A program made the translations under genes and the position numbers. From positions 620,001 through 684,000 of the forward strand of contig JBAIAA010000650.1 of assembly GCA_037893245.1 (NCBI GenBank): 64,000 nt of DNA. Direction: 5' to 3'. This document shows positions 16,523 through 59,988 of this stretch, piece after piece; position 1 is the stretch's first letter; the number at the start of each line of letters is the position of its first letter. The notes beneath the pieces are model-generated. The model ran no database searches, was not told the origin of the DNA, and was given only the letters and a program-made list of their open reading frames with translations. Origin of the DNA: Crossaster papposus. Lineage: Eukaryota > Echinodermata > Asteroidea > Velatida > Solasteridae.

Positions 16523-19500
16523 ATGTCAGCGAAAAAGATGGCCGCGATTCACTGGCTCGACATTCTGGAGAAAGAGTTCGACAAAGCCTTTGTCGACTTG
16601 GATATCTTGCTGGGAGAGATCGACCCGGACCAATGCGAGATCACCTACGAAGGCAGGAGGAAAATGACGGCCCTGAGCGCCGCTTTCGCCCAGCTTTGTC
16701 ACAAGGGTCAGACCATTTTTCAGAACAACGCCAAACTTGAGGTAAACAACACAAAATTGTGCACAGTCAGGGGCCAATTTCACAGAGCTGCTAAGCACAT
16801 AAATTTGCTTAGCATAACAATTTGTCCTCGGCAAAAAAAAGGATACAGAAAAAATTGTTACGTGATCTTTATTGTGTTTGAATGATAATCAGCTGGTTTT
16901 TTGCTTAGCATGAAAAACACGTAGAATTTTGGCTGGTAACCTGTTTTTAATGAGCAAGACTTTTTTGTGCTAAGCAAATTGTTGTGCTTAGCAGCTCTAT
17001 GAAATTGGCCCCAGGTGTACGTGTGAATATGTACTATGCCCATGGCGTACGTACGGGGGTGGGGAGAGGCTGCGACTGGGGAGGGGCTGCGGCTGGGGAG
17101 GGGCTGCGGCTGGGGAGTGGGAGGGGCGGCGGCGGCTATCTCAGTCTTTCATTAATTAAATATAGAATAGACCATTTTCTGTAGATATCGAAAATGTTTA
17201 CTACCGTAATATTAGGCCATGAGAACTTAGGTACGAGTTTACCGTCCGAGACTTTTTGAAAAGTGATGAGGCTTTTTTTCATTATTCATTATTCATTATT
17301 CAATATTTTTCATTATTTCATTATTCATGAAGTATGGATAGTGAAGTACATAGAACCGGCAAGGGCCGCCCCGTATACTGCAATCACGTGACCTGTATCA
17401 TGACGCGAGCATTCGTCTGCTGCGGCTGGGTCCTTCAAAAATCGCAAGATATCGTGTTAGATTTGTGCCATCGTTTGATGTAATTACATCTACGAGATTC
17501 ATCAAAACATTATTCAGGTTTTCATTTGCGTATTTATGACTTTTCATCGTTTTAATGCTCGATATGATGAAAATACTTACGCACATGCAACACGGGAAAT
17601 CCCACACGAAATCGGCAAATCGGTAAGCAACATCCGGGTCCCGGCCAAGCGTTGCCAAGCCGATGAAAGAGGACGACGGTGATTGGCTGACACGTTTGGC
17701 GCCCAGTAATAGTGTAACTACAAGTCGCTAGGGCCGAGTTCGGGCGGTCTGTTCTTGACACGCGAACTCTGTTCTCGCGCTCGAACGGCGGGAACGCGAC
17801 CCGTGAACATTGCACTCGGAACAAGAACACACACCACCTATCCATCAGGGTTTTGCAAGAACAAGTTACGCGTGTCAAAAACAGACCGCCCGAACTCGGC
17901 CTATATGTCTCCCTGAACAACGCCATGATCGTAGGTGTAGAATTCGTCGTTTTTGGAGGGAATAAGTGAAACAGACTTTTGGGATAAAACTGCAACTTTT
18001 TTTGAGAAATAATGAAATTTTTTTAAATAATGAAATTTTTCATGCGGTGGCGCCACGACCATGCGGGCGGTGGACGGTAAACTCATACTTTCATTCTCAT
18101 GGCCTTACTGTGAAAGTAAATAATGATTGATTCTAGGCACTAATCCAATGCTTTCATTGCAGGCACAGGTCATGAATCTGCGAGCTGATCTGTGCGAGGT
18201 CCGAGCGACAAAGTCTATCCTAGAGAAAGAACTGCACAACCAGCTGTTGCAGTTACACGCTGTGCAGCTGCAACTACACGCCAAGACGGGACAGAGCGTG
18301 GACTCTGACGCCATCAAAAAGAGACTGGTACGTACGTGCCACACTCTCCTAGGAAAGAATGCCGCAACCTGACGCCACTTTTTTCTTCATAAATCATCTC
18401 GATGAAGGTCAATCAGGGCAGAAATGTTATAAAGACATAAATCTGGAACTGAGTACCATTTTCAGTTTTGTTTATTGACTCTCTATAGATTTTGTACTTA
18501 ACTGCTGAACTGTAGTCGGGATACTACAGTCTTTCCCCTGCAGAGGCACAAAATTGTAATTTTTTGTTGTTGCGATTTGGTCCAGTAACTCACTTGGAAT
18601 TGAAATTGTTTTGGTTCAGTATGTACATTGTATTATCGTGATTATTGATATGGCTCCGATTGGTACATATAGAGTTTGTTCAAATCCCTGAGATGTAAAA
18701 CGGAGAGTGGTTGGCCAATCTCAAAAAAAAATCTCTTCCTTCAATCAGGAGCAAGAAATGGAGTCCTTCAAAGCCGACGGGATGAAAGAAGCGCGTATGG
18801 AGGCGGAGCTTAAGGAATACCGAAAAGACAGCACGGAACAGAGACAACACATCATGGCCCTGCAGGGAGAGGTGTATGGGGCGCGGCTAGCTGCCAAGTA
18901 TCTGGATAAGGAACTCGCTGGAAGGTGAGTAGCCGCAGTTGTAACTGGAAATAACTTGTCTTAGTTTTCACAGGCACTGTGATAAATTCTCCAAAGGTCC
19001 TAGGTTCATTGTCCATAAGCTGATCTATCTTGTTTTCTCTTTAGAATCCAGCAGATCCAGCTGTTGGGGCGAGACCTGCGGGGTCCAGAACACGACAAAC
19101 TATGGAACCAACTCGAGGCGGAGATCCACCTACACCGACACAAGACGGTCATCAGGGCGTGCCGGGGACGACAGGGGTATCGCAACAGACTCCCACAACC
19201 ACCGGGACACGTAAGAGTGGAGCCAGTTGAACCTCCTTGTATTCACATAGGCTAGAGTCAATCACAAATGAAATTTAAATTGTCGACATCGATATGTACT
19301 CCCTGAGCACATAATATGTAAAACCTGAAGGTAAAGTCATATTTGTTGTCATTTTTTGCTTCTTTTTTCTCCAGGAAAATGCTATCAGTCACCGTGGCGT
19401 GGGTGAAATGCGGACCGTGCTGATAGTCAAGGAGGAGGATGAGGGTCTAGGCATGTCAATCACGGTAAATAGATCGGACATGGTTTAGCAAAAGCAGGCT

Positions 19501-21007
19501 TTTAACCAGGACTTGTATAACACGAGCGAGGCCAGAAATATCAGGGTGTGCTACCCACAAATGCCGGCATGAACCCGTCTCGGATCTAAGTTCGTGAAAA
19601 GCAATCCCATGCCTGTGCCCGGTCAATGTCAAAAATATTCCCGGCGCGAACTGGTTAATTTTTTTTTTACAATAATTAAGATTTTGTGGTTAAAAATCTT
19701 GATTGCTCCTAGTGATTCCAGTTTTCCCTTTCCCTCCCAATCTCCTGTTTCCAAGGGTGGCAAAGAGCACGGTGTTCCCATCTTAATCTCTGAGATCCAC
19801 GAAGGTCTTCCCGCCGATCGCAGCCAAGGGTTGTATGTAGGGGACGCCATCCTGTCGGTCAATGGCATCAACCTGCGCGACGCCAAGCACACACAAGCGG
19901 TAGATATCCTCTCCCAGCAGGTAGGTGGAGCCAGGGAACTTAAAAAGGGAAGAAGGGACTTGATCAATTTTGGAAAAAATACAAATGACACCACACCGAC
20001 CCAAATTGTTTTACTAAATTTACGATTGCGCTACCCTACCTCTCTCAGTGCAAATACGAAGCCAGTTAGCATTTCTATCAAAACCTATCGTAACTCATGC
20101 GCTTTGAGAGATCGAGGGAAGGAGGTTGGTTTTTTGATAGGTTGTGAGGGTGATAACTGGAGGAGGGTTTTAATGGAGGTCTTGAACTTTGTGGGCGATA
20201 AACCATCAGTAAATCTTACGATCACACGTTTTGAGTAACCATTGGACCTATTTTTTATTCTCAGAATGGGGAGATTAGCATGGAGGTTCAGTTTGTTGCA
20301 CCCGATTCGGACAGCGACGACGATAACGACGAAATCATTGATGAAAATGGTTACAGGTCAGTAAGCACAGTCCGTCATTTGAAACAAATTTTGAAAAGAA
20401 ACGTAGAGACAAATGGTTACAAAGACCACCAGAAACTGATCTTCAAACTTGACGTGGGATGCTTGTCTTCTGGTGGCAAGCTACATTTTATTTCCACGTT
20501 TGTTGAAATTGCAGTTATCCAGTTTATGAGGAAAGCGAGGAGGACTTGCTAAGTTACCAGCAGCCCAGCGAGGACAGCCTCCCACGGTCCCAGGCCACCA
20601 GCAACTCGGCCACTCCGCTCCACGAAAACAGCCCATCGACATCATCAACGCGCCAACGAGCCAACGGGCATTCCCCGACAAAGAAGATGGCGAAAACAGC
20701 CGGGATGCAGAAGACACCGTCGCCAGCCACGCCGGGTACCAGCGGTGGCGGGGCGCGAGCTGCGGGGAAGTCGTTTCCGCCGCTGTCATCGTCGTCGTTG
20801 TCACGCGAGGCGCGGCACTCCACGTCCAGCCAATCATCGGAGAGATCGGCTGCCTCGCTCCTGCAGGGGGACATGAGCGCGGCGTCCCCGCCCGCGACGG
20901 AACCGGGAAACGAGATGAAGATGATGAGCGTGGGTCGCGTGTGCACCAATGCGGTGCAGGGCATGCCCTCGGCGGGGAGTGGCGAGGAACTATTTGGAGC
21001 AGACTGA
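16523..21007 (+). CDS. GOPC: Golgi-associated PDZ and coiled-coil motif protein, complete, 8 exons
   Basis: Exons 16523-16741, 18163-18327, 18749-18924, 19045-19210, 19375-19464, 19756-19920, 20265-20356 and 20515-21007 join in phase to 521 aa. Exon 1 carries the family start block [20 protein letters not shown]. Exons 2-4 (about residues 74-242) are coiled coil, with [34 protein letters not shown] and [20 protein letters not shown]. The PDZ domain spans about 257-343, with carboxylate-binding loop GLGMSI at 266-271 and [17 protein letters not shown]. The acidic patch DSDSDDDND follows, then a Ser/Pro-rich tail of about 160 residues, longer than in human. Known homologues sit at the Golgi/trans-Golgi and sort PDZ-ligand membrane proteins toward lysosomes or the surface. 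Two in-frame ATGs (16523 and 16538) are possible starts; the second lies in a stronger AAGATGGCC context. Intron 1 contains a MITE. Confidence 0.97.
16770..17012. mobile_element. MITE family 1 copy in GOPC intron 1
   Basis: Inverted ends GGGGCCAATTTCACAGAGCT and AGCTCTATGAAATTGGCCCC, with internal inverted TTGCTTAGCA blocks. About 243 bp, non-coding. Other copies: 28219-28463, 42536-42778, 44701-44936 and 62681-62904. Confidence 0.9.
17053..17136 (+). repeat. G-rich tandem repeat
   Basis: Repeats of GGGGAGGGGCTGCGGCT lie in GOPC intron 1. Many closely spaced G runs on one strand could form G-quadruplexes. Confidence 0.8.
17160..17340. repeat. Repeat A fragment followed by an ATTCATT microsatellite
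   Basis: 17160-17215 matches the end of repeat A (GTAGATATCGAAAATGTTTA). 17278-17330 is an imperfect TTCATTA microsatellite. Confidence 0.6.
18405..18530 (+). repeat. Dispersed repeat B, copy 2 (GOPC intron 2)
   Basis: Diverged copy with AAGACATAAATCTGGAACTG, aligned to the copy at 11490. Confidence 0.65.
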
Positions 21008-21260
21008 TGAATATTCAATCTTATGAATATTCATTATTCTGAGGAATACTTATGAATACTTATGAATATTTATGATGGCAGGTCATCTCAATATTAACAT
21101 TTTAATATTGTGGTGAACTGTGAGTGAATATTATTTTTTTTAAAGAAATCCTCATGGTAATAGGTACATGTAATCCCAATATGGCAAATTGTTTAGCATA
21201 CTGATAAATATTAATTTTTATGAATATTCATTCTTGTAATACAATAAAGTCCTCTCATAA
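21008..21260 (+). other. GOPC 3' UTR with repeated TGAATATTCA palindromes
   Basis: Directly after the stop, ATGAATATTCA-like palindromes recur several times. An AATAAA signal lies at 21243-21248, a plausible polyadenylation site about 240 bases after the stop. Similar AATATTCA words continue to about 21740. Confidence 0.6.
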
Positions 21261-25119: not shown

Positions 25120-26480
25120 ACACTCAAAAGGCATACATTTTAATTTGTTTGTCCAAAAAGTCATAAAAATACAGGTCTAACCCCTAATCATTTTAATTGT
25201 TTCCACAAAGTCATTTTTTGGCCAATTTGAATACAAATGCAATTTTTAATTGTTTCAAAATGCATTTTGTTTGCCATTCTTAATAAAAGTGCAAGTCAAA
25301 CCTATTGGTTTCAAAAAGTTAATTTTTGTTCAGTTATAAAGAAAAATGCAAGCCTAACCCCTTATGATTTTTAAATGTTCCAAAATGCCAAATGTTGGCC
25401 AATCTAAATAAAAATCTATTTTTTTAACAATTTCAAGTGTTTCCAAATTATTGGCCAATCTTAATAATTGGGTTTTAGATAAGAAAATACCTGGATCTGT
25501 ATTAACTTATTTAGACAAAAGAAATTAGGCTTTATTAAAATTAGCCAAAATATAATTATTTGGAAAAATTAAATATTAAATAAGGGTTAACCTTTGATTT
25601 GTATTAACATTGGCCAACATTTAAAAATTATAAGGGGTTAGGCTTACATTGTTATTAAAATCGGCAACACCTTTCCTAAAAAGAAAAAATGAAAGTTGTA
25701 AGGGGTTAGGCTTGCATTTCTATTAAAATTGGCCAAAATTTGACTCTTTGGAAAAATTAAATATTGTAAGGGGTTAACCTTGCATTTTTATTAAAATTGG
25801 GCCAATCTTTACTTTAAAAAAAACTGAAAGTTATAAGGGGTTAGGCTTGCATTTTGATGAAAATTTGCTCAAATTTGACTTTTAGAAAAATTTTAAATTA
25901 TAAGGGTTTAGGCTTGCATTGTTATTGAAATTGGCCAACATTTGAGTTTTTTTGAGACATTTTAAAAGGGTTTAGACTTGCATTTTTTATTGAAATTGGC
26001 GAAACTTTTACTTTAAAAAAAATTGAAAGTTATAAGGGGTTAGGCTTGCATTTTTATTAAAGTTGGCAAAAATATGATTTTGTTGCAAAAATGTCTTAAA
26101 TCAGACTATAATATTGTATAAGGGGTTAGCCTTGCATTTTGATTAAAATTAGGCAAAAATATGATTTTGTCCTGAAAATGTCTTAACAGACCAAAATATT
26201 GTTTAAAAAAAATTGTAAGGGGTTAACCTTGCATTTTTATTAAAATTGGGCAACATTTTCCTTAAAAAAAGAAGTTAAACTGTAAGAGGTTAGGCTTGCA
26301 TTTTTATTAAAATTGGCCGAAATTTTACCTTTTTGAAAAATTAAAAAAATGTAAGGGCTTGCATGTTAAAAGAAATTGGCAAAAATTTGACTTTTTAGAA
26401 TTAAAAATTGTAAGGGGTTAGGCTTACATTTTTATTAAAATTTGCCAACATTTAAGTTTTTGGAGAAATAATACATCTAA
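25120..26480. repeat. Degenerate AT-rich array arranged as an inverted repeat
   Basis: From about 25560 to 26480 a unit of about 68-100 bp recurs at least eight times, marked by TAAGGGGTTAGGCTTGCATT and ATTAAAATTGGCCAA. From about 25120 to 25450 the same unit appears reverse-complemented (GCAAGCCTAACCCCTTA, TTGGCCAA). The two arms meet near 25500, so the whole is an old inverted-repeat array. No terminal structure or coding frame was found. Confidence 0.85.
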
Positions 26481-31595: not shown

Positions 31596-31770
31596 TATAG
31601 ACGATGTGCCTCTGACGTCACGTGTTTACATCTGTATTCAAATGTACCCGGCAGTATATGCGCACACATCGTGTTTTACATACAATTTGCTTAAATAGTG
31701 ACGTCGCAGGTCAGATCGCCTTTGAAATGTGACCTCTGATGTCATCTCTTAACCAAATTTATTTTGTAAT
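31596..31770. mobile_element. Palindromic MITE family 2, copy 1
   Basis: Starts TATAGACGATGTGCCTCTGA and contains CATCTGTATTCAAATGTACC and GCGCACACATCGTGTTTTAC. The distal part folds back on the inner part (GTGACCTCTGATGTCA). Related to 34102-34355. Confidence 0.75.
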
Positions 31771-35069: not shown

Positions 35070-35885
35070 ATTATGTGATGTCGTCAATCCATTATGTGAT
35101 GTAGTCAATCCATTATGTGATGTGGTCAGTTTATTATGTGATGTAGTCAATCTATTATGTGATGTCGTCAATCCATTATGTGATGTGGTCAATGTATTAT
35201 GTGATGACGTCAATCTATTATGTGATTTGGTCAGTGTATTATGTGATGTGGTCAATCTATTATGTGATGTGGTCAATCCATTATGTGATGTGGTCAATCC
35301 ATTATGTGATGTAGTGAATCCATTATGTGATGTAGTGAATCCATTATGTGATGTAGTGAAGCCATTATGTGATGTAGTGAATCCATTATGTGATGTAGTG
35401 AATCCATTATGTGATGTAGTGAAGCCATTATGTGATGTGGTCAATCTATTATGTGATGTGGTCAATCCATTATGTGATGTGGTCAATCCATTATGTGATG
35501 TGGTCAATCCATTATGTGATGTGGTCAATCCATTATGTGATGTAGTGAATCCATTATGTGATGTAGTGAAGCCATTATGTGATGTGGTCAATCCTTTATG
35601 TGATGTGGTCAATCCTTTGTGTGATCTCGTGAATCATTATGTGATGTAGTCAATCCATTATGTGATGTCGTCAATTCCTTATGCGATGTAGTCAATCCAT
35701 TATGTGACATCGTCAATCCATTATGTGATGTAGTGAATCCATTATGTGATGTGGTTAATCCATTATGTGATGTAGTCAATCAATTACGTGACGTAGTGAA
35801 ACCATTATGTGTCGTCAATCCATTGTGTGATGTCGTGAATCCATTATGTGATGTAGTCAACCCGTTATGTGAAGTGGTCAATGTA
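35070..35885 (+). repeat. 21-bp satellite array, left arm
   Basis: Units such as CCATTATGTGATGTAGTCAA, with variants at the GTAGTC/GTGGTC/GTAGTG position. Because 21 is a multiple of three, both strands stay open and give artefactual heptapeptide-repeat frames (CDVVNPL, HNGLTTS). Confidence 0.97.
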
Positions 35886-37904: not shown

Positions 37905-39300
37905 GGATAATGCATTGACCACTTCACATAACGGGTTGACTGCATCACATAATACACTGACCACATCACATAATGGATTCACGACATCACATAATGGATT
38001 CACGACATCACACAATGGATTGACGACATTACATAATGGTTTCACTACGTCACGTAATTGATTGACTACATCACATAATACACTGACCACATCACAAAAT
38101 ACATTGACGACATCACAAAATACATTGACGACATCACATAATACACTGACCACATCACATAATGGATTGACCACATCACATAATGGATTGACCACATCAC
38201 ATAATGGATTGACCACACCACATAATGGATTCACGACATCACATAATACACTGACCACATCACATAATGGATTGACTACATCACATAATGGATTGACCAC
38301 ATCACATAATGGATTGACTACATCACATAATACACCTACCACATCACATAACAGATTTACTTCATCACATAATACATTGACGGCGTCACATAATAGATTC
38401 ACTACATCACATAATGGATTCACTACATCACATAATGGATTCACTACATCACATAATGGATTCACTACATCACATAATGGATTCACTACATCACATAATG
38501 GATTCACTACATCACATAATGGATTCACTACATCACATAACGGATTCACTACATCACATAATGGATTCACTACATCACATAATGGATTCACTACATCACA
38601 TAATGGATTCACTACATCACATAACGGATTCACTACATCACATAATGGATTCACTACATCACATAACGGATTGACGACATCACATAATACACTGACCACA
38701 TCACATAATGGATTGACTACATCACATAATGGATTGACGACATCACATAATACACTGACCACATCACATAATGGTTTCACTACATCACATAATGGATTGA
38801 CCACTTCCCATTATGGATTGACCACATCACACAATGGATTCACTACGTCACATAATGGATTGACTACATCACATAATGGATTGACTACATCACATAATGG
38901 AATCACTACATCACATAATTGATTGACTACATCACATAATACACTGACCACATCACATAATGGATTGACCACATCACATAATGGATTGACCACATCACAT
39001 AATGGATTCACTACATCACATAACGGATTGACGACATCACATAATACACTGACCACATCACATAATGGATTGACTACATCACATAATGGATTGACCACTT
39101 CCCATAATGGATTGACCACATCACATAATGGATTCACTACGTCACATAATGGATTGACTACATCACATAATGGAATCACTACATCACATAATTGATTGAC
39201 TACATCACATAATACACTGACCACATCACATAACGGATTGACGACATCACATAACATATTGACTACATCACGTAATGGATTGACGACATCACGTAATAAC
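37905..39300 (-). repeat. 21-bp satellite array, right arm, with higher-order repeats
   Basis: The same 21-bp unit on the minus strand, about 66 copies. A variant pattern recurs at larger spacing: TTGACCACTTCCCATTATGG near 38798 and a near copy near 39091 are about 14 units apart, and AATTGATTGACTACATCACA recurs near 38917 and 39188. The right array therefore grew partly by multi-unit duplication. Confidence 0.95.
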
Positions 39301-40803: not shown

Positions 40804-43800
40804 TCACATTATGACATCTAAAGATGAAGGAAACTGACCCGATTCCATTCCGTACGAAGCGATCTCCGCAGACAGCTGTTGCGGGTGACTGTGCGAGTAA
40901 CTGGCCGTCCATCCCTCCCCAGCTCCCTTGGTGAAGTCGCACTGTCCGGGCATTGCGGGTAACCTCCCTGGGCGGACCGAGGGCTGGATGAGGAGGGACG
41001 AATACCGGGGATTGAAGGCGCTTCCCCCGGTAGTCATCCCAGGGTAGCTCAGGTCGTGGATCCCGGACCGGTGGTGGGTGTATGAGCTCTGGGAGGACCC
41101 GAATGGGTAGTGCCAGGGGTCGGGCTGGTGGTGGACGGACCGGTGGTGGAGGGGTAAGGGGTAGGGGTCGGTGAAGAGGGGCTCGTGGTGAGTGGAGTTT
41201 GAGGTAGGCCCTTGGGTGGTGACGGTTGTGGTGAGGCTGGTACTGCTGCTGGGGGTGGGGGTGGTATGATGGGTGTGGTGGTGGGGATACCTGACTTGGT
41301 TGTAGTAGTTACTGTTCCAGAAGGAGGCAGGGAGGTCACGTTGACACATCGGGGGTACTGCCGATTATATGGGGAGGGAGAAACAAGAATGTATACCAAA
41401 TATAAGGTATTATAACTAACGTAGATACAAAAATATGTGCGGTTTAAGAAAATTAAGCTTGGCTGCCATGCCACCAAAGTCTGTTCAATAATGTGGCCTC
41501 TGGCAATCAATCAGAATTAATGCACATTTTGCCACTTTGTCGTAATGCCTACATCAACCATGTCTTAACCAAGGCTTACAAGGGCTAGGCCCCAGCTTTG
41601 TCTCCGTCTGCGGTTTCGTTCATCCAGTTTGACAATGGTGATGAAGCCGAAATGGAGCAAGCTGGAGTTTGAAAAACGAGGCTAGCCTACAACTATACAG
41701 GTACTCAACTTGGAGCGGACGCAATGCACTAAAATCTCAACATGTTGTAACTTTTGATTAGTGTGTTGTTCCCCCTTTTCCCCACATAGTTGCGCCCATT
41801 TGCCTATTATCGATGGTTGGCATCCATGGTATTTGTAAAAGAAATAGGGTAGGTGGCTTTTTCTCACAAAGAGTTAGTCTCTTTGAACACTCAAAGAAAC
41901 GAACCCCACTATTAAAACAAATCACTTCACGGTTACAAAAAGATTGAAACAGAAAGTACTTCGTTTCAAGCTCTAGATATTCTCAGATACGAGGTTCTTT
42001 CTAATGGTGACACGTTGTCATCTAGCCAAATAAACGTGGTCATACGCGACCCATATGTCCGAGGCTTCTCCGGCCGGGCGCGCTTTCGCTGTCAACGCGC
42101 TGGGCTAAAAACCTTTTTGAAACACGGGCGACTATAAACAACGGGGGCAGTCACCATGAATTTATTATTTTGATGCACTTAAAAACAATCGCTGAAAGGC
42201 GTCAGGTTTTAAGGCTGTATAGTTGTTTTTGTTTTTTTTGTACAGAATAAATTTGTCGGAATTATAGGGACATAATGCTGATTGCTGAAGTCCATTATCA
42301 TCCTCAACCCTCCAAAATCCTCCAAAATCAATAAGATTTTGCACACACCCTAGGGAGTTAGGGTTACGTAAAGAAACTAACATTTCAATTCAAGTGCAAG
42401 TAATGGTCAGTTATTTGCTTAATGGTGCTAATTCGGACATTACATTAGTTTGTGGGTTTTTTTTCCTCAAAATTTCGAGAAATGAGTAAAATCGAATAAA
42501 AGTTTAATTTGATAACTGCATTGCCACTATAATATGGGGCCAATTTCATAGAACTGCTTAAGCCCAAAATGTTGCTCAAAAACCCTTGCTTGGTAAATCA
42601 AGTTAGGCGCGAAAATTCCATGTGATCGTTATGCTAAGCTAACAACAGATAAACACCAATCACAAATAATATACATGTACATCACGTGGAGTTGTGGCTG
42701 GTAAGCTGGTTTTACTAAGCAAGAATGTTTTGTGCTTAAGCAATTTTTATGCTTAAGCAGCTCTATGAAATTGGCCCCAGTTGGTTATGTTCATCCGTCT
42801 ATGTTTTTAAATATTATTATCAAATTACAAATAGTAGACGCAATACAACAATTTACAGAACCATAACAAGTAAAACAAGAGAATCGATAAATAATAAACG
42901 CTTTTGGAAATCTATATCTGAGGACAAATAATAATTAAATCTTCGTCATGTGATACAGGTACAAACCGCATATACAAATTTGAGTTTCAAACCGTTTGGG
43001 TAGACGCGCCAATGGAGGGCGCCTGTTGTAAAATAATAATAATCACGTGGCAGGCTTCCGTCCAATCGAAAGACTCTAATTTATAAGGCACCTATCAAAG
43101 CTAATGTCATTTGGTGTTTTGTTTAAAATTACGTCTGATACATTTTTTAATAAAGGGACACATCTCAAAATCTTGAGAAATATCGTAGATGTTTTCTTTG
43201 GAAAAGTTAATTCGTCTCCCAAACTGTAAACTTGCTGCAAGTTTAAATTGTTATATCTAGTGTTGAATCAATGACAAATTATTTACCAAACCCAGTTTCT
43301 CGATTCAGCAATCATTGTTAATCCCCCTTAAAATGTCACACACACACTCAACAGCATTCCGACGATGGATTTACACGGGGCGAATTACCCAGTCACCTTC
43401 ATAATAAATCTGGGACAGTAATAACTATTATCTTTAATTGACGCCCCGTTATTTTCATCGGAGTAGCGGGGGAAATTCTGGAGCATGTTTATTTTCATTT
43501 TCAATGTGAACCGCGCGCGCTGCCGGTCCCGATACAAAATTGACCGCGTGCCGCTTGTTAATACATGCGGCCTGTTATTACGAACAATCATCACTTGCTA
43601 ACATGTGCAAACTGTACTGACACAACTGGCAAAGTTTATTCCAATTCCAGCTTTCTATCGTTGGAAAACGGACGAATTTTTACAATATTTTTACAAGGTG
43701 ATATTCTCATAAATCAAACAATAGTATTTTTTTACAGAGTTTTAATTTTTAGTTTTTAAAAATTCTCAAGCCCGAAACAAGTAATTCTGAGAAATAAATT

Positions 43801-46800
43801 AATAAAGATTTTTTTGAAATGACGATTTTATCTACGAAAAAAGAAAAGAAAGTTGGAAGAACAAGACGACAATGAAGAGTTGTTGCGTGGAATAGCGTCT
43901 GGGAGGTTTATCAAACATGGGTTCCATCTACAATGAGGCTTCAGCCACAATACTTGATTTCTTGAACGTTGACGGCGCGAGGTTTTGAATCCATATATTG
44001 GGTTCATTTTCTCCAACCGAACAATAACATTTTGATAATAAGCTAAATGAGTGAGACTTTTCATTTGGTTGGATCAGTAAAACGCGTACGATATACCCGA
44101 ACCAGAAACAAAGACGAACTTGAGATGAACCCGAGGTTTAAAAACACCAAAGATGTACGAACCCCGTTAAAAAAAGACTCAGTCATTTGACCCAAAATCT
44201 GAGGTTTGATCCCCGCTCTTCATCAAAGCTAAAGACCTTGGTTAATTCGTTTTTAAGGATACCAAACTCTGATTTTATCTGAAAACATGTAGAGTATAGT
44301 GTTGTCTTTCATCTATAGTGTTACACACAGTGGCTGTATTATGGTGCCTCGTTTCGTAGGCATTCCATCACCTGTTCTCGGTCTTTATCTAGCGATACAC
44401 TTGACATTAACTGCGGCTGGGTCGTGCGCCAGCTGTCATGGGGGGCTTGGGGGTCTAGAGCGGTCAAGCCGCGCCGGGCCGCGGGCCAGGGCGAGTCAAG
44501 AGTTCGCGTTTCGGAATTAGCAGCTACACGGGCACGGCGAATTTATAGGCCAAAATCTGTCTAGTCGACTCCTGATAGTTAGACGGGGCTATATCAAGAG
44601 ATTGATGGACATTTGTCCCAATCTTCAATGAAAATCGACCGGTAGGTTTAGGATATTGCAGTGTTATTGGAAGAGCACAGCCACTTTTCAAAGGACATGT
44701 GGTCAATTTCATTGAGATGCTAAACACAAACATTTGCTTAGAATGAACATTTACCTTGGCAAAAACAGGGTTATAGCCCACAGACCAACTTTCCAGGTGA
44801 TTTGTTGTGTGTGTGTGATTGATATTTAGTTGGTTTTGGCTTAATGCTTAGCATGAAAAGCACGTGAACCTGTTTTTACTAAGAGTTTTTGTTCTAAGCA
44901 ATTTGTTGTGCTTAGCAGCTCCAAGAAATTGGCCCCTAAAGTTCAAGGAATACGTGCGAGTGGTTTTCTACACAGTGATGGATTTTGTAAGATTTGGGAA
45001 TATTCCCTGCATTAAAAATGTGCCCCAAAAGGCAATTAAAGGTCTAGAATGAAGCTGGGTCTATTTTTATAGGAGAATTTAGGCCCAACATCTTGGCCAC
45101 TCCCTACAATGACTCAGGTTTGATATTGCCACGCCCCTGATACTCCCCTGGTTCTTCCAATCTTCCAGCGTTGTATGTAGGGTTGTAACATCTTTGTCTA
45201 TGTGTAATTATCTGCACACGATAAAGGTTTCTTATTAAGCAAGAGTCAGAAAGCCACATTATTCCCGATGTACCTCTCCTAACCCGAAAAGCCACGTCCC
45301 CCTGTACGCGGTACAACAAGTAACATAAAACCTGTCTCTTCGGTATTCAAATTTGTGTTACTGTTAGCGTTTATGCAATCGAGTGTATTTTGCCTGTAAG
45401 GGTGTACTTTTTTTCCTTTGACCTTCTTCTGAGGTCAACTCCATAAAATCATGACAAGGAGAGAAAATATACTGCGCTACACCAAATTAAAACCACTCGC
45501 GCATTCCACAACATAAATTCTTCACGTCTGTTTTCCTTTCTATATGGCTAAAACCTAAAACAGAGTCATTATTCTGAGAAATATGATCGTCAACGCGAAA
45601 GAAACAGCAACAGCACAAACGACTGTCATTTGTGTGTCTTGTACATGCAGAGAGCTAAGGAGAGGGCACCATATGTTTCACATTTAGCCGCATTCCTGGC
45701 TCTTCTAGGGGTTGAACCATCGTGACTTCCGTTGACAAGTCAAATTCAATATTTCCCAAATTGATTGAAGGTACGAAACCAGGTCAGGTACAGGCAGCAG
45801 GTTAGGCCGGGTCGGGGGAAACGGCAGCGGTTTGCAGTTGACCGTGACCACACGCGATATAGACTTCGACCGGGAGGAGACGAGACAGGGGGAAGTGTAC
45901 CTGCTCGCTAAAGCTGGTCGAAAAAAAATCAACGTTGTTTTTATTTTAAAGGGCACTGGATGTAATTTAATGGCATTGCCGGCCGTCTATATAGGTTCTT
46001 TAGAAGTATGCTTATATCTACCATCATAAATAGTACCGTTTAATATATTTCAATTGTTTTTAGGGCCACCGACCTACAAAACGCGAGAATATAATCGCCA
46101 TCCAACAAAAGTTGTTTGGGGTTCTGTAAAAGCAGACATACTGGCCTAGATCACATGCCTTGTCTGAACAATCTTAAGAATTTCACACATGGGATGAATT
46201 ACAAATGTAAACAGATGCTATTTTCGTGATAAGAAATGGCATTAAGCTTTTGCTTGCAGTAAATATATTTGCACTTTTTTAGTTTGGATTCAGTAAATGG
46301 GAGTGCGCACGGGTCGGATTCTAACCCTAGACCCGATTATTACAATAATCTCTTGGGGAGTAATTTAAAAGGTGCCTTACACTACAGACTTACCCCTATT
46401 CTCGCCGTTCCACGTGCCCCCTTCACCCTGTTTACCGGGACTTTCCCCCGCGCCCGTGGTCACCCCGACCCGCCCGTCTTGGGGGAAGCTACTGGGCTGA
46501 CTCAGCGCCCGGCTGAAATGTTCGTCGACGACTTTGTTCAGTTCGCCGGTGTAGTACGTGAAGAGCACGCAGCGCGAGTTGACGTACTCCGCCTCCACCG
46601 TGGGCTCGGCCTCGTCCACGGTAGGCTTGTCCTCTTTCTTCACGCTGGCCTGGTGGGGGTTGTCGGGGCTGTTGCCCGTAGTTGGCGAGCTGTGTTGATG
46701 GTGGTGGTGGTTGTTTTGATGGTGGTAGGGTGAGGTGGATGTTACCGGGGGTACAGATTGAGTGTGAGGGGTGTAGCTCGTTTCATGGTCTGGGGGCTCT

Positions 46801-49034
46801 TGCATCTTATAGTGGCCGAACTTCTGTGATATCAAAATAAGATAATAAATTTATTAAATGAGGATATCAAAGCATTCGAGAGATAATGAACATCCGCTAC
46901 AAAACAATGTTTCTACCCGACGCTATCATTTTCTTCATATATAATCTCAATAAAGGTCAGTCATTGCAAAAAATAATGTTGAAAAAACAAGAATGTTTAA
47001 TTTTGGTAGAAAATAATTTGTCGTGACTCTTCTTAGACTTTGTACACAAACGCAGAAGTGGCGTCAGGATGCTAGTGCTACATCCTTTCAACACGACATA
47101 GGCTGCTAGTGATTTCTAGATTATGAATTTCTAACATTTTGTAGTATAATAACTAATAAATAAATAACATTTCACCATCAATGTACTTAGATTTTTTCTT
47201 GTAGCATTTGGTACCTCGTTTTAAATGCATAACATTGGGGTTAGGAAAGGGTTAAACGTTGCCTTGCGTGAGACACTTACATCACGGTTATTCGGGTCAT
47301 CGTGGGACTCTTCAAGATATATAGTCCTGACCCCTCCGCCGTCCCAGACAGCACATGCGTTAGGCATTATCGACAACGGCTCTGCCGCAGTCGCATCTTC
47401 AACACGTGGAATGTCCATACGATGGCATTAGAGTAAATACAGCTTCGGGGACGAAAACATAAAGTTGGGCTCTTCGTGCGTTTGAAATTATTTTGGTCAA
47501 GTATACACATGTACCCGGAGATATTTGTTGAACCTTACATGTGTTCTAGTTTGTGTTGTCATGTCATGTCATGTCATGTCCAGACCAAGAATGCCTCAAC
47601 ACCAGTTCGGCTGAGGAAAGGAATCTAATGAATTCCAAAGATTTGTTGTCACCTTTCATATGTAAATGAGAGTTCGGCTTCAGATGATGCGGACACACTT
47701 CATTTAAAGTGGACGAAATTTATCACACGTTGATCGAAATGGGTGAACAAATAAACAGATGTTTATTTCATTACGAAGTGATTATTACCTCTGCCGAAAA
47801 GGGGTTATGTTTTTTGCCGGTGTAGCATGAACTTCAGACTCCATAAAATCCGGACTAGTTTCCCCCTGTTTTATTAATTTGAGCAAAAATTTGGCTAAAA
47901 TATATCTTAATGCCAGTTACGCTCACACCTACATTCAAGTAATATATTTTCGTCCAAAATAGGCAGAATTGAATAAATTCCAAGAAGTTTAGCCCGATTA
48001 AAACCCGACCTGTCACAATTGTAGAATATGTGACCATAAAAATCATACACATTCCAAACATGTTAGAATTCGGTAATCCCTACAAGTCAACATTTTTCCC
48101 CCATTTTTAAATGACGAGTAATTAGCAACTTTGCGCAAACTCTTCGACTATTCATTGTTCAAAGAATTCCGAGAATTACTGAGAATAGTCGGCTTTCTAC
48201 CCATTCTGTGCATATGAGTGACCTACATTTAGTTTGTAACCGCCATGAACGCGGTTCTATTTAAATCACTGTTGGTTTTTAATTTATACCAACGCGAAAG
48301 ATATCCAAACGTTTCTATTGCTCTAAAAGTAAAAAAAGGTAAATCGAAGGAAAGGCTACTACGTAGAACAAACAATGATATGAAATTAAAAAATTTACAA
48401 TTTAAAAAATAAAATGTATATTAACAATAACGTTAGTGTATAGAGTAGACTTTATCTTAATACGCTGGGGTATATAAAACAAGAGATTCGTGTACAGGTT
48501 GTGTTTACATGGGTTGTCTAAGCCAAGGTCAACTGCATGTGGCAAACTATATCTGGCATTTAAAAAGTGACATTGCGGTTAAAAAAACTTTAATTTCCTG
48601 AAACCATGAAGTAAGGAAAGAAGGAATTCCTTCCATTAATGCTAAAATCAAGTGACACAATCCACCCCGGCAGGGAAAGAATGTATCCAGCCAAACGATG
48701 CAGCCAGGACGATACCAAGTTGTGTACGGAGTGTATGAAGAGTAACGGACATTTTCAAAGTACTTCTACTCCTAAGTTTTGAAGTGGAAATGTTTCTCGG
48801 TCCCAGATTCATGTTTTTTAAACATTGAACAAAAATCGAAATATGTCTTGCCTCCCCCTATAATAATATACACCAACTGAAAATAGTCGTCAGTGCCTGA
48901 ACTACTTATTACATAATAATCTCTAATGTAAACACTGGTATGGTAAATACCTGAGTGAAGTGACGTTGGTAGAAAGGGTAGTGTTGATATGATTGATGAT
49001 AGCCGCTCTGATACATCACGTCTAAACAGCTCAT
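40804..49034 (-). CDS. VGLL: Vestigial-like TEAD cofactor (Tondu domain), complete, 3 exons
   Basis: Minus-strand exons 48951-49034, 46394-46823 and 40804-41357 join in phase to 355 aa. The N-terminus MSCLDVMYQ is the hallmark of the VGLL2/VGLL3 group, followed by a Tyr/His-rich stretch and KFGHYKMQEPP. The TEAD-binding Tondu domain spans about 105-141 in exon 2, with AEYVNSRCVLFTYYTGELNK followed by VVDEHFSRALSQPSSF. Exon 3 has the second conserved block DLPASFWNSNYYNQ and long His/Ser/Thr/Pro-rich low-complexity segments. Known homologues have no DNA-binding domain and act in the nucleus by binding TEAD/Scalloped, controlling muscle and appendage fates. Introns of about 5.0 and 2.1 kb hold two MITEs and repeat B copies. 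It is convergent with GOPC and lies downstream of HTATSF1 on the same strand. Confidence 0.96.
42536..42778. mobile_element. MITE family 1 copy in VGLL intron 2
   Basis: Ends GGGGCCAATTTCATAGAACT and AGCTCTATGAAATTGGCCCC; internal TGCTTAAGCA-type repeats. It is the copy closest in symmetry to 62681-62904. Confidence 0.9.
44701..44936. mobile_element. MITE family 1 copy in VGLL intron 2
   Basis: Ends GGTCAATTTCATTGAGATGC and AGCAGCTCCAAGAAATTGGC. The left end is diverged and the inner TTGCTTAG blocks are retained. Confidence 0.85.
46930..47080 (+). repeat. Dispersed repeat B, copy 3 (VGLL intron 1)
   Basis: TGTTGAAAAAACAAGAATG and CAGAAGTGGCGTCAGGATGC match the ends of the other copies. A fragment on the opposite strand lies at 48780-48835. 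Confidence 0.65.
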
Positions 49035-52142: not shown

Positions 52143-52510
52143 CGTACAGTTGAGTCCATCGAAGGGATGTGCAAGTCCATCACAGTTCTTCAGTCCCAAT
52201 TCAAATCGCAGGCTATTTAAATGAGCTTTGACGAAGGCATTAATTTGTCATTGTACATGTATTGTTCATGTGACTGGCTCCTACGAAGCAAGACATGAGA
52301 CAGAGAGAACCCCTCTTCTTTGTGGTGGTCATTGTGCTTGCAGAATGTTGTGGTTTCTCAGGAATTCGTTTTAGGGTTTTTTAGGGAGGGTGCGTAAGAT
52401 AACAATAGTCTAAGGAGTGTATAGGCATGGGGGACTAAGGGGGAGTCCCTAGGTCTCATATCGTGCTGGATATAGATTGGCTCGACTTGTCAAAGGACTC
52501 GCAAGGACTC

Positions 52511-54058: not shown

Positions 54059-54078
54059 GGGGGGGGGGGGGGAGGGGT

Positions 54079-54181
54079 TGACATGTTGTCGTTGTCTGCG
54101 TGTAATTCTGCAGTTTGTGGGTTCGAGTCCAGCCTGGGGTTGTGCATGACTGGTATGTGTGCCCTTGGGCAAGGCACTTTG
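54079..54181 (+). mobile_element. SINE 5' part, interrupted by a hAT-type MITE
   Basis: B-box GTGGGTTCGAGTCC near 54117 and the body word GCCCTTGGGCAAGGCACTTT match the SINE at 4466. The SINE is cut at 54181 by the element that follows and resumes briefly after 54408. Confidence 0.75.
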
Positions 54182-54408
54182 CAGGGTTGTATAGTCGAGT
54201 CCCTGCAAGTCCGTTCACAAGTCCCTTCGTGAAGCCAGTCACAAGTCCCTTCATAAAGGCAGTCACAAGTAACTGGATGAACAATGACAAAGAAATGCTT
54301 TTGTCAAAGCTGATTTGAATAGCTTGTGATTTGAATTGGGAACTGAAGGACTTGTGGTGGACTTGCATGGACTTACAGGGACTTGTGATGGACTCGACTT
54401 CATCCCTG
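54182..54408. mobile_element. hAT-type MITE, copy 2, with 8-bp target duplication
   Basis: Ends CAGGGTTGTATAGTCGAGTC and the inverted GACTCGACTTCATCCCTG. The 8-bp sequence GCACTTTG lies on both sides (54174-54181 and 54409-54416), and both flanks are SINE sequence. At 227 bp it is non-coding and related, in inverted orientation, to 51910-52142. Confidence 0.92.
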
Positions 54409-55061
54409 GCACTTTGTCACTCATTACTTCTACATACGAGCGCAGTGATTGATACCGTGGCTGCTTTGCGTGGAAATGGCGGTATTAGGCAGTATGCATG
54501 TACTAATACTATGCAGGCAGCTGAGATTGTTTTTGGAACGTTTGATTGGCTCAATGAAAAGGGGTAAGTAATAATGTAAAGTAATCTTTAGAAAGTGAAG
54601 TACCATTAGGATTGTAAAACGTTTGGAAAACCTGGCCAAAATATGTTCATTATTCAAGATGTACCAATCTTTGTTAAACCATTCACCCATTACTTTTTAC
54701 TTGACATAACCCCACTGTCATTACACGTACATGTACTGTGGTTTTTGTTTTTTTGGGGTAATTATATAGACTCGAATGATGACCCGGAACCGAATTTAGA
54801 AAAAACAAACGATCTATCATAGTTGTACACAACCTTATAATGGACTCCCCAGATGTGAAACGTTTACAAGAAGCTGGTTTTGTAATACACGGAACCTTGT
54901 TTACGTGTGGACCGGGTGACAAAGGTAATTTGACTGTGGAAGTCATCATTGGACGTGTTTACATTCTCTTAGAGTCATCATCATCGTCATCGTCATCATC
55001 ATCAAATGACCCTCTGTGCTCAATAAGTTAAGCTTCTTTAGCTGCTGGGTGATTAGGGTTG

Positions 55062-55063
<2 letters not shown>

Positions 55064-55092
<29 letters not shown>

Positions 55093-55345
55093 AGCTACTA
55101 GGGGCTGGGGCTGGTGGGGGATGGTGGGGGATGCTTGGGGATGCTTGGGGCTGGGGCTAATATGGGCTGGGCTACTGGGGGGTGGGGCTACTGAGGGCTG
55201 GGGCTACTTGGGGCTGGTGGGGGTTGGGGCTTTAGGGCTTAGGCCTACTGGGGCATGGTGCTGTTGGGGGTGGGGCTGCTGGGGCTTGGGGCTGCTGAGG
55301 TTTGCTGAGGCTTGGGGCTGCTGGGGGGGGGGGGGGGGGCTGGAG
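55064..55345 (+). repeat. G-rich low-complexity block bounded by long G runs
   Basis: A run of 29 G (55064-55092) is followed by irregular GGGGCT/GGGGATG repeats and a second run of 17 G (55323-55339). The strong strand asymmetry over 280 bp could form G-quadruplexes. The open frame across it is low-complexity and not a gene. Confidence 0.9.
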
Positions 55346-56319
55346 ATTGGGAATTGAAGATCGATAATTGGGTTTTGAGTGGGGGTGATGTAATGGCGTA
55401 CATAGCACATCCAAAGGTTCTCCCAATTCAAGGTAATTTAGAACAAGCCAAAACCAGTAACTCCCTTCCATCACTGTCAGAATCCCAATCTCAGCTCTTA
55501 ATCAAAGTGTCAACGATTTTCTTCCAATGCCTGCCAAGTTCAGGACGGTAATTTGCTAAACACTCTTGTTTATTTTAAAACCTCTCCCGGACTACCCCTG
55601 TAGGTCAACTGTTTAGGTATACAGGACAAGTAAGCGGGCGCATTCCAAGCATTTTGACACCTTTTCGGTGATAAATCTCCCATATTTAGAGATGAAAACA
55701 GGCGCGGGTATTAGTTGGATCGATGTGTTGTCAACAGAGCCGAATAGCGTTAAAGGTTTGAAGGTGCAACCTAAAAGTGATAAGGCAAAAAGTCAGCCGG
55801 TGAAAGTTTTACTAAAACACAATTTCTGCTGCAGCCTTTAGAACCATTCTTTTATTAAAGAAACTCAAGATTTTAAATAATGTTGTCAACCTTTATGGGA
55901 CGGGTGGGGTGAACAAGTAAGTTGGGGTATATATTTTCAAAAACTTGGGCAAATACTATTTCCCTAAACATCTTCGAAACTCATGTCATTTCTCCATGGA
56001 GAGAGGTCTGCAAACTCGATCAATACCGGTCGTCGTGCATCGATACTTTTCCATGAGATAATTTTGCAGTGTGCCAATCATTTCATGCAACCTTTCAGAT
56101 TTCAAGAGACGGTTCAATCAAGTAGACTTACGTGCGCAGAATACCCTTGTCAGTCAATAGTTTCTAAATCCAGAGACCATAAAATAGCAGATCTTGGAGG
56201 AATTTTAAGTGTCTCAAGGTTAGGTGTTTCTTTTTTCTTGTTTTTGGGAGGGGAGGTTATAGTGTCAGTTGTATAAAGTAGATTATTGTTGTTGTCGTTT
56301 TGAAATAGGTGTCAACATC

Positions 56320-56610
56320 TCGTAAAGGTAGGATATACCATTAGTAATTGCTTAATTTATCATGAATGGGTGGATTTTTTTGGGGGGAGGGGGGGGGGGT
56401 TTAACTGACCTGTCCAAAGTTTTACAAATATGAAAAAAAACAGCCGTCCGGCGATCTGAATTTTTAAAAATAAAATTCAATTTTTCGAAACAATTATTTT
56501 GCTGGATGCCTAGAATCCTTATAGACTTTCAAATAAGTAAGAAATTTCTTAATAATTCGGTGGTAACCTTTTTCGATATCTGCAAATGGTGTATCTTCTA
56601 AGGATAACAT
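56320..56610. repeat. Repeat A copy, inverted
   Basis: Reverse-complement of repeat A: GTTTAACTGACCTGTCCAAA near 56400 and TCGATATCTGCAAATGGTGT near 56573. The left edge also starts AAAGGTAGGATATACCATT, so the outer ends form inverted repeats. Confidence 0.7.
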
Positions 56611-58899
56611 TTTGATTGTTTTGCAGATCGGTTGTTTTGCAGAACGACTTAAATGGCCCATTGCTAATTTCAACAGATTAATTGAGCCGCTTTTGCCTGG
56701 AAATGCCTGAAAGGTTTCATCATGTTTAACGTTTGATCATAATCTACGTGCACATACCACCTTTAAAAAAGTCCCAATTGTACAGAAATAAAATATGAAG
56801 CGCCGAATGTTCACCGAAAGGACATGGCCGATCCCAGACGTGACATCAACAAAATGATCTCATGGATCGGTGCAAAACTAGAAAAACTGCTCTGCTTTTT
56901 AGAAATGCGGGCTTTAGGGCTCGGAGGGGGCACTACCTAGGGAGTCTTGTGTTGCTCAAGATTTGTTACTGGGCCAACAGATGCGAAGGAGAGATTATTT
57001 ATATGCTCGGTGTCATCTTGGGAAGGTGATGATGGTTTTTTTCTTCAGTTCAACTATCATAAAAGTCTGGATTCCCGGGTCAAAAGTCGGCCGACATGCT
57101 TAATGTGATGGAGTTTAGGTTTTATTACTGAGAGTTGTGTTTATAAAGTTAATGCACAATTGGGGAAGAGAAAATGAAAACAAAAGATACAATCCAAGCA
57201 GTGTTCCTGCACCTTTCAAACATTTCTGTGACCAAATAATAACAATTCGTGACCAAGTTTATAATAAAGGAAATTATAATGTGTATTAGTGAAATTTGTC
57301 CTATTTTTTTTTTAATACAGAAACCTCAGATTTCCGATTGTAAACTAGTATGAATATATATACAGACCAATTACAAGTGTAATTTTGACAATTTTCCATG
57401 AAAGAAAGTATCGGCTGAATAACTAACAATTTGCTAATCACAAAATAGGTTACCAGCCCAAATGCCACGCAGTCAGTATTGCATGCGACTGGTTCCCTGC
57501 CAATTTCTGCTTAGCGCATAAACCTCCTAAGCAATATTTTCTGTTTAACAGCTCGTCGAGAGTGGATCCTGGACTCTTCCTATGGGGAAATCTGTGATTG
57601 GCACGTAGGTTGGCTGAGTTCCACCTCAAGATGTCAAATTAACCTGGTTATGATGCTGATTTACAATATCCTTATTTGGGTCTGTCTGGTACCCATACCT
57701 CTCCTGGGACCCACACTTGATATAATGAGTAAGGGCTCTGATCCTTGATCCAAGGGATCTGAAATATTAAATCATACCACAATAAATTTATTGAGGTGGT
57801 GAAAAAAATTGCTTCGGGAGGAAAATAATCTACACTAGAAAAAAAAGTAAATTTCACTTTTAGCAACTGCTCTACCGATAAGTCTAGATCTGCCTAATTA
57901 TATTCTGGTTTAAACGTTATATGTGCTTAGAAAATACAACATAACATTTAAAGATTATTCTGTAGATTAACTGTGACTCAATGATGGACTGTATTAGGCA
58001 TTCAGATCTCCAATAAATTCTTTTAGGTCATCAAATAAATTCTTGAAAGGTTTGCTCCTGATTAAAGGCACAGGATTGTCTTGCAAAAATCTAGCGAAAC
58101 AGAAACCGAAAGTCGCCATCAGAGGTGAAACCCTTTAAAGGGCAATCTAACAAATGTACAAATGTGCCTAGAAGCATCTGGCCAATTCCGAAAAGTCACC
58201 CCCCCCCCCCCCTCTTCCCCTCATCCCCCCCAAACAGACATTATAAATCTACCAACACAACTTTGCTCGCTCATAGAAAATATCCACAACCATCAATTTA
58301 CACAATTTTGTTGTTGTTAAGGTTAATATAAAACACAACAGGGAACGGGCATGTGGTGATAGACAGTCAGAAATATATTGAAGAAAGGCGAGAAGGTCGA
58401 TTTATCCGCTGACCCCAAACGGAAGTCGCACCAACACCGATTGACCACATGTGGACCGGTCTCATACGGGCGACTTCCAAAACCCCCTTGTCAATTTTTT
58501 TCTATCACCCTACTGAAGTGAACACCTCACCAGATGATTTTTACCTGCAGCTAGCTTGGGGTGGGGGGAATTGACTTGCAATCAAATCTGGCCATGTCAC
58601 ACAGTTCATCATCAGCTACCCCACTACGGACCTGAACCGGGGAAGAATTTACCCCCCACAAGAGGAATCTTCCTGTTGGTTCCCATGGTGATATCACACG
58701 CAACGTATCTCAGCCAGTAATTCACTGTATGATTAACGGCCCAAATACTAATTGAAACAACATTGGGTTATTTCTCTGAAGCCTGTATAGCACCGAACAG
58801 CAAGAAATATCAACTGATGAGATCGAAATTTGGAAGTTGGCAAGATTTGTTTAACGGTAAAAAAAAAGAAAAAGTGTAATCACCACTTTCTCTGGGGCA
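56611..58899. other. Intergenic DNA and possible HTATSF1 3' UTR
   Basis: No coding signal. A degenerate MITE-1-like stretch lies at 57420-57560, and a 14-base C run at 58199-58212. Part of the right side should be the HTATSF1 3' UTR. Confidence 0.35.
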
Positions 58900-59988
58900 T
58901 CACGTTGTCGTGTGGACGGCTTCGGTGTTCTGCGTGGTATCGCTCCCTGCCTCCGTAACCGAACTGCTGCCGCCATCGGTGTGCTGAGCGATATTGCTCC
59001 CCTGCGTTTTCGTCGTCTCCTTCCCCGTGTCTTGCTTCTTGCCGCTCTCCGATTCCGCCGTCCTCTTCTTGTCGTCGTTATCTAAGAAGTTCTCCCACTT
59101 CTTGAGGCGTTCGTCTCGCTCTTTGTCCGTCTCCTCTATCTTGTAGTCGGTCACGCCATCCCACAGCTCGCAGAGAAGCTGTCTCTTCGCAAACCACCTT
59201 CCAAAATAAACGAAGGTCCCCCTTTAAATAAACTGATTTCTCAAAGGACAGGTGAACATGTGAGTGTGTTGCATGGACAAGGCACTGAAGAATTTCGAAA
59301 TATTTCAAAGCGACTGGAAGTGTAAGTTATTAAGAACACATTCTTGGGGATAGATTGACCGGTCTGGTTCCCTACCTTCCGTTGAGGGATGCCACACAAT
59401 CATCAGCGCATTCCACGTCTTTGAATTTGACAGAGGCGACACCGTCAGGATGCATCTGCGAGAAAGACAGTCGAAATAGGGGTGAAGCTTATTACTGGCA
59501 CTTGTTATTATGACATTTGTCATGGTCACTGCCATTTGTGGTGGCCACTCATTTGTTGTGGTCACTGTCATTTGTTGTGGTCACTGTCATTTGTCGTGGT
59601 CACTGTCATTTGTCGTGGTCACTGTCATTTGTCACAGTCGCTGTCATTTGCCACAATCGTTGTCATGAAGAAATCATTTTCTTGATCAAGATGCGCTGTT
59701 ATCACAAGAATTGCCACCTTTATCACCAGCATGACCATCAATAAAATTACTGTCATCATCATCACTACCACCAACACAATCATCACTACCACCCCAAATC
59801 ACCGCCGACCAACTCTCGGGACACCGTGACCAGATGCAGCATCTCAAACCTCTGAAAAAAAGTCTCCCGATTTGTCAAGCATCTTCCAAAAAACTTACAT
59901 CGAAGATGAGGACTTTCTTGACCTCTCCAAACTTGGAGCACTCCGACTGCAGGTCGTCTTTGATCTCGTTGATAACCATAGCATCTTC
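58900..59988 (-). CDS. HTATSF1: HTATSF1 (Tat-SF1/CUS2-like splicing factor), last 3 exons only
   Basis: Minus-strand exons 59899-59988, 59376-59455 and 58900-59197 join in phase to 155 C-terminal residues. They encode the U2AF-homology motif (UHM/RRM2): INEIKDDLQSECSKFGEVKK, then HPDGVASVKFKDVECADDC, and RWFAKRQLLCELWDGVTDYK with the UHM-type R-W/G-F loop. TDYKIEETDKERDERLKKWE follows, a linker typical of this family. The C-terminal tail is short (about 60 residues, Lys/Glu/Thr-rich) compared with the very long acidic tail of human Tat-SF1. Known homologues contact SF3B1 through the UHM and support U2 snRNP and transcription elongation. RRM1 and the N-terminus were not found up to 64000 and probably lie beyond the window. 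Confidence 0.93.
59516..59665 (+). repeat. 18-bp tandem repeat in an HTATSF1 intron
   Basis: About seven imperfect units of GTCATTTGTTGTGGTCACT lie between exons at 59455 and 59899. Confidence 0.85.

Follow-up and report, generated by a model that had tools for sequence, protein, structure and literature searches.

The question raised by this locus is how a single vestigial-like (VGLL) gene of a sea star, which is flanked by GOPC on one side and by HTATSF1 on the other, relates to two separate human loci, one holding VGLL2 and GOPC and the other presumably VGLL1 and HTATSF1. The window, that is, the whole stretch of DNA analysed, comprises 64,000 nucleotides from Crossaster papposus (assembly GCA_037893245.1, contig JBAIAA010000650.1, termed C650 here and 1,383,807 bases in length) and corresponds to C650:620,001-684,000. 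An earlier note on this DNA had read GOPC (+), VGLL (-) and HTATSF1 (-) in this order, and tblastn, Pfam and structure-chain matches agree that the order is real and that the orientations in the window are correct, the human strands used for comparison being assumed. For the single-copy trio found here, which is split between two loci in human, duplication of the block followed by reciprocal loss is the best explanation, with a probability of about 0.87. What is directly seen in the sea star is which genes make up the trio, how they are ordered and oriented and that each occurs once, the vertebrate history being what we infer.

GOPC occupies positions 16553-20357 (+) and was identified by tblastn with the human protein. 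Its seven coding blocks (16553-16747, 18157-18327, 18695-18928, 19043-19210, 19372-19464, 19756-19926 and 20250-20357) are spanned by six alignments with 48-79% identity to human GOPC; taken by itself, the last of them is weak (tblastn E 2.2). The PDZ block places human GOPC PDZ structures at the top with 1.3e-23, the runner-up being syntrophin at 1.9e-15. None of the three coiled-coil pieces has a Pfam match, and identity there comes from the alignment to human GOPC. The gene displays the architecture of GOPC, namely blocks over most of the length and then one PDZ, and GT donors follow several blocks, whose ends are only partly refined, the outer ends of the first and last exon not having been located. 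On the other side of VGLL, the last three coding blocks found for HTATSF1 (59991-59899, 59452-59375 and 59202-58903, minus strand) encode most of the UHM region and what follows it; in the last one the similarity stops at 59062 and the open frame at 58903, and this block alone matches no Pfam family. Five more blocks, including RRM1 and the N-terminus, are located to the right of the window at C650:688,042-691,321 (window-equivalent 68.0-71.3 kb), and the gene thus extends about 7 kb beyond the right window edge. With chains of human HIV Tat-specific factor 1 the joined protein gives a match of 2e-81, in which RRM1 and then UHM are both covered.

The VGLL gene between them is constructed of three minus-strand exons from 49,034 to 40,804, which are joined in frame with AG/GT borders and encode 355 residues. 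Exon 1 (48951-49034; MSCLDVMYQSGYHQSYQHYPFYQRHFTQ) opens with MSCLDVMYQ, the first nine residues of human VGLL2; its match alone is weak (E 1.1), but it is supported by an in-frame junction with exon 2, by the borders at the splice sites and by its alignment with the start of VGLL2/3. Exon 2 (46394-46823), bounded by the acceptor CACAG and the donor GTAAGT, carries the Tondu (TEAD-binding) domain (PF07545, E 1.3e-17), the core of which, CVLFTYYTGELNKVVDEHFSRALS, comprises residues 113-136 (46500-46571, minus strand). The domain scores 63.8 bits against a cut-off of 27 in one stretch, as is characteristic of the one-Tondu Vg/VGLL1-3 type, and the two-Tondu VGLL4/Tgi type is excluded for this gene, the sole VGLL4 (PF15245) match lying on another contig, C354. 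Exon 3 (40804-41357) contributes an omega-loop and the C-terminal region common to VGLL2 and VGLL3. The omega-loop, PMCQRDLPASFW (residues 174-185; 41317-41352, minus strand), is a probable second TEAD contact and matches PF15238 at E 2.7e-5 and 24.7 bits, which is below the cut-off of 26.

Searches of the whole assembly (1,023,315,904 bases in 1,841 contigs), which at genome scale score the best candidates only, gave one match to PF07545 (Vg_Tdu), namely the window VGLL, and one match to VGLL4, on C354 and none at the window locus; the detection of the latter indicates that the genome search is able to find so short a domain. All six HTATSF1 matches fall on C650, as do seven of the twelve GOPC matches, the other five covering the PDZ part only. 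GOPC, HTATSF1 and the Vg/VGLL1-3 gene were each found as a single copy in the genome search. A separate VGLL1 orthologue elsewhere in the genome, which the earlier note had named as a result that would speak against its reading, did not appear.

On the human side, HTATSF1 is taken to lie directly upstream of VGLL1, and the strands of both linkages are likewise our assumption. The near neighbourhood of human VGLL2 and GOPC with ROS1 and DCBLD1 between them, as claimed in the earlier note, is in print, the order at 6q22.1 being VGLL2, ROS1, DCBLD1, GOPC and NUS1 (PMC3232202). VGLL1 is placed at Xq26.3 with CD40LG, ARHGEF6, RBMX and GPR101 (PMC10932951). The claim that HTATSF1 lies upstream of VGLL1 is documented as far as Htatsf1, Fhl1, Map7d3 and Vgll1 falling within one mouse X interval (PMC9601528), its direct adjacency and strand being assumed. 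If both linkages are shared by sea star and human, the block belongs to their last common ancestor, a step for which a further outgroup is unnecessary. The window would accordingly preserve, in its state before duplication, a neighbourhood of genes that the deuterostome ancestor possessed, in which one Vestigial-like gene would have stood between GOPC, with its 3' end facing it, and HTATSF1, upstream on the same strand. The block is part of a longer segment that also includes group I metabotropic glutamate receptor (mGluR), CTBS, tomosyn (STXBP5 type), OCRL/INPP5B, HDAC8, CTPS, ABCB7 and SMS genes. This segment would have been copied in early vertebrates by two whole-genome duplications, after which the copy now on human 6q would have kept GOPC and VGLL2 together with GRM1 and STXBP5, and the copy now on Xq would have kept HTATSF1 and VGLL1 together with OCRL, HDAC8 and ABCB7, further copies having probably given VGLL3/STXBP5L on chromosome 3 and INPP5B/CTPS1 on 1p34.

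The wider flanks bear on this proposal. Twelve families were identified in 304 kb (C650 500-804 kb), which are arranged as SMS (-), ABCB7 (-), group I mGluR (+), CTBS (-), GOPC (+) and VGLL (-) in the left part and HTATSF1 (-), STXBP5-type tomosyn (+), OCRL/INPP5B (+), a PAXBP1/GCFC2-like gene (+), HDAC8 (-) and CTPS (+) in the right part. We take the human members on X to be SMS and CTPS2 at Xp22, ABCB7 and HDAC8 at Xq13 and OCRL at Xq26, those at 6q24 to be GRM1 and STXBP5, those at 1p34 INPP5B and CTPS1, and those on chromosome 3 STXBP5L (3q13) and VGLL3 (3p12), with CTBS at 1p22, PAXBP1 at 21q22, GCFC2 at 2p12 and GRM5 at 11q14. FHL1/FHL5 and MAP7D3/MAP7 are presumably further 6q/X pairs, and other families among the twelve presumably pair X with 1p34 or 6q with 3q. 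A binomial test was based on these assumed places, on assumed gene shares (X 4.2%, Xq 2.5%, 6q 2.5%) and on 1.75 members per family, likewise assumed. A human X member is present in seven of the twelve families (SMS, ABCB7, VGLL, HTATSF1, OCRL, HDAC8 and CTPS; 6e-6, or 7e-7 and 6e-5 with 1.25 and 2.5 members per family), a 6q member in four (mGluR, GOPC, VGLL and STXBP5; 1e-3) and a member on either in ten (2e-8). Without the original trio the values are 5/9 for X (2e-4) and 7/9 for 6q or X (7e-6). Restricted to the long arm, Xq alone gives 5/12 (9e-5) and, without the trio, 3/9 (0.006), and Xq or 6q gives 8/12 (1e-6) and 5/9 (4e-4), respectively. The X part of the correspondence is strong. 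Moreover, the X and 6q genes alternate along C650 on both sides of VGLL and of the repeat arrays described below, and this interleaving across the arrays at 35-39 kb indicates one ancestral segment rather than a misjoin. The pattern is that of double conserved synteny, in which single-copy genes correspond, interleaved, to at least two vertebrate regions, single copy having been checked for VGLL, HTATSF1 and GOPC only. The idea of the earlier note that an ancestral block was duplicated in vertebrates, each copy keeping one side, is thus supported by the flanks and their interleaved 6q/X families; the check that it had proposed, with further gene pairs, gave a human 6q or X member for ten of the twelve families, which are interleaved genes rather than 6q/X pairs, VGLL alone being represented on both.

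The intervals between the three genes were searched for further content. Open frames of at least 60 residues number 77 and 46 in the two gaps and 28 inside the VGLL introns, of which 77/77, 45/46 and 6/28 were covered by the Pfam scan (n=128), and shorter exons may escape it. Eight of the 128 match Pfam at 1e-3, one of them above the cut-off (Collagen_mid), and all eight lie in frames of 21-bp minisatellites and were read as repeat artefacts on this ground, so that no domain-bearing gene was found in the scanned frames between GOPC and VGLL or between VGLL and HTATSF1. The two minisatellites share one 21-bp unit in opposite orientation (35,070-35,882, about 39 copies; 37,907-39,297, about 66 copies), and open frames traverse them on both strands. 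Other tandem arrays, with units of 33/34 bp and about 67 bp plus multiples, are present at 2395-2679, 3097-3302 and 25624-26206, and a scan of the window against Rfam gave no match. ROS1 or DCBLD1 between GOPC and VGLL was considered and rejected, the scanned gap frames being without a domain-bearing gene. The ROS1 query gave none of its 141 matches on C650 (139 of 374 candidates scored), its best candidate by identity (82%, part of the kinase) lying on contig C301, while searches with MAP7 and with the LCCL domain (DCBLD) gave no match here or in any control and are uninformative. On C301 the ROS1 kinase and a NUS1/DHDDS-family gene, in which NUS1 and DHDDS were not told apart, are found about 190 kb from each other (370931-563490); in human, ROS1 and NUS1 flank GOPC on opposite sides (PMC3232202). 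Beside the ROS1 kinase exons, at C301:371672-372475, there are five matches to one 29-residue kinase stretch with a spacing of about 180 bases, which might represent a partial exon repeated in tandem.

Several of these results weigh against a duplicated block. Without the trio, 6q alone has members in 2/9 families (p 0.055), which is not significant; SMS and CTPS2, which account for two of the seven X members, are assigned to Xp22, a region that joined the X later; among the twelve families VGLL alone is represented on both 6q and X; and the places assigned to CTBS, PAXBP1/GCFC2 and GRM5 do not fit. In addition, most human places and the gene shares are assumed, and the flank genes were named with the duplication idea already known. 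The human 6q22.1 interval, in which GOPC and VGLL2 are likewise convergent near neighbours (human strands assumed), differs from that of the sea star by ROS1 and DCBLD1 (PMC3232202), and the best ROS1 candidate of the sea star is on another contig. These differences, together with the fact that the comparison rests on two lineages, lend some weight to the explanation that only one linkage is ancestral, the other having arisen through rearrangements that took place independently in the two lineages, with a match that is partly due to chance. We hold this to be quite improbable: both neighbours match in orientation and proximity (human strands assumed), which would require two independent coincidences, and further 6q and X genes are present in the wider flanks on both sides.

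It has also to be considered whether VGLL1 is an older or separate duplicate that was lost in the sea star, in which case the window gene would correspond to VGLL2/3 alone. Of the human proteins, VGLL2 is indeed the nearest to that of the sea star (85.5 bits), followed by VGLL3 (73.2) and VGLL1 (52.4), and the sea star protein aligns with VGLL2 and VGLL3 beyond the Tondu domain and with VGLL1 essentially in that domain; the relationships, a further point on the negative side, are similarity scores against three human sequences. On the other hand, HTATSF1, taken to be the neighbour of human VGLL1, adjoins the sea star gene, a second member of Vg/VGLL1-3 was not found in the genome search, and fast divergence of VGLL1 accounts for the weak similarity, so that a separate origin of VGLL1 has, in our estimation, only a small chance of being correct. 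An artefactual order produced by misassembly at the GOPC-VGLL minisatellites, to which the two inverted arrays (21-bp unit, 39 and 66 copies) might give rise, is hardly credible with 6q/X genes on the left (mGluR, ABCB7 and SMS) as well as on the right (HTATSF1, STXBP5, OCRL, HDAC8 and CTPS) of the arrays. Duplication of one ancestral block with reciprocal loss remains the preferred explanation.

The protein itself adds a second line of comparison. Vg and VGLL2 bind TEAD through the Tondu domain plus an omega-loop, unlike VGLL1 and VGLL3, and in PMC7566471 the omega-loop is proposed to be ancestral and lost in the latter two, with M324, R327, F329, S332, F333 and W334 named as the Vg contact residues. 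The residues of the sea star at these positions, compared by eye with PMC7566471, are M, R, L, S, F and W. In comparison with the two-contact form of Drosophila Vg and human VGLL2, the sea star protein keeps Tondu and omega-loop with the M, R, S, F and W contacts, and a leucine stands at the position of F329, as in YAP. Judged from its sequence, the sea star VGLL is expected to act as a TEAD cofactor with two contacts, the Tondu helix and the omega-loop. The linker between Tondu and omega-loop has 37 residues in the sea star, and, counted alike, 26 in VGLL2 and 11 in Vg by the numbering of PMC7566471, in which the printed values are 27 and 12 (VGLL2 and Vg). In that paper it is called difficult to decide if a similar linker was already present in the ancestor of VGLL2, a question on which a non-vertebrate deuterostome protein with omega-loop and long linker bears; as one sequence, it speaks for a long linker in the ancestor of deuterostomes without settling the matter.

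With regard to the remaining genes, CTBS (di-N-acetylchitobiase, GH18) is the left neighbour of GOPC (2138-7913, minus strand; first exon by eye), where PF00704 matches at E 6.9e-6 and 26.4 bits, below the cut-off of 29.6, and tblastn with human CTBS covers 2138-6936. Positions 1-246 (+) are the probable end of the group I mGluR gene, which starts near C650:582 kb; an open frame of 469 residues at C650:618840 (+) was judged by eye to be its C-terminal exon, and its seven-transmembrane exon is best matched by mGlu5/mGlu1. The STXBP5 tail displays 59-75% identity to the human sequence, the other pieces comprising one with WD40-type matches and three without a Pfam match. For the OCRL/INPP5B gene, OCRL is ahead (7.5e-26 against 2.3e-21 for INPP5B), and the PAXBP1/GCFC2-like gene was recognized by eye and by one Pfam match, NTR2; STXBP5 and STXBP5L, as well as PAXBP1 and GCFC2, were not told apart. 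The flank genes were picked by eye from frames of at least 55-85 residues, and others may be missed. A dual-specificity phosphatase at C650:505 kb, the orthology of which is ambiguous, was left out of the twelve-family count together with frames near C650 502-504, 533, 565, 704-712 and 793 kb, those at 533, 565 and 709 kb having no Pfam match. Beside HDAC8, at C650:793190-794113 (-), there is an open frame of 308 residues with at least two units like SSSSEKLLKRLEDLSENIPP.

Elsewhere in the assembly, the mitochondrial contig C1841 (16,330 bases) has AAA at sites of COX1 taken to be invariant Asn, AGA for Ser and TGA for Trp, a code of a type that occurs in echinoderms and flatworms. COX1 is immediately preceded by thirteen tRNAs, and after it come Arg, ND4L, COX2 and Lys (ND4L and COX2 by eye), which we take to be the asteroid order. 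On these grounds an origin of the window from a protostome or a chordate was rejected. In contig C8 (5,301,754 bases) two places give stop-free matches to the COX1 family, and a cis-prenyltransferase match runs over its full length without interruption, the match on C301 being split in exons; the assembly may include a bacterial chromosome in the form of C8.

Double conserved synteny is well known as a kind of evidence, and it is established in general that sea star scaffolds group by conserved synteny with amphioxus/chordate linkage groups (PMC7269912). The present case resembles the chordate linkage groups and the paralogons of the two vertebrate genome duplications (PMC7269912 and PMC6193309) in that several segments of vertebrates, with interleaved gene loss, correspond to a single one in an invertebrate; it differs in scale, those works dealing with chromosomes and this one with an oriented three-gene local order in one contig. 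Among the titles listed in searches of the open-licence literature, none is on a GOPC-VGLL-HTATSF1 block. Why the trio would have held together is a matter for a tentative and rather doubtful suggestion, namely that regulatory DNA of the developmental gene VGLL, situated within its housekeeping neighbours or on their far side, has kept the three genes together from the deuterostome ancestor onwards. Each vertebrate copy would then have needed one neighbour, VGLL2 keeping GOPC and VGLL1 keeping HTATSF1, and, if this were true, the ancestral regulation of VGLL would have been divided between the two sides. On the same reading the ancestral VGLL would have been a TEAD cofactor that made two contacts and had a long linker, the short linker of the fly and the loss in VGLL1 and VGLL3 being derived. 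The locus provides a small, concrete and oriented case in which duplication and loss would have divided a single ancestral locus between two in human. Through it VGLL1, hard to place by protein sequence, would be tied to VGLL2 by way of its neighbours, and the GOPC-VGLL and VGLL-HTATSF1 gaps would be natural places in which to seek shared enhancers.

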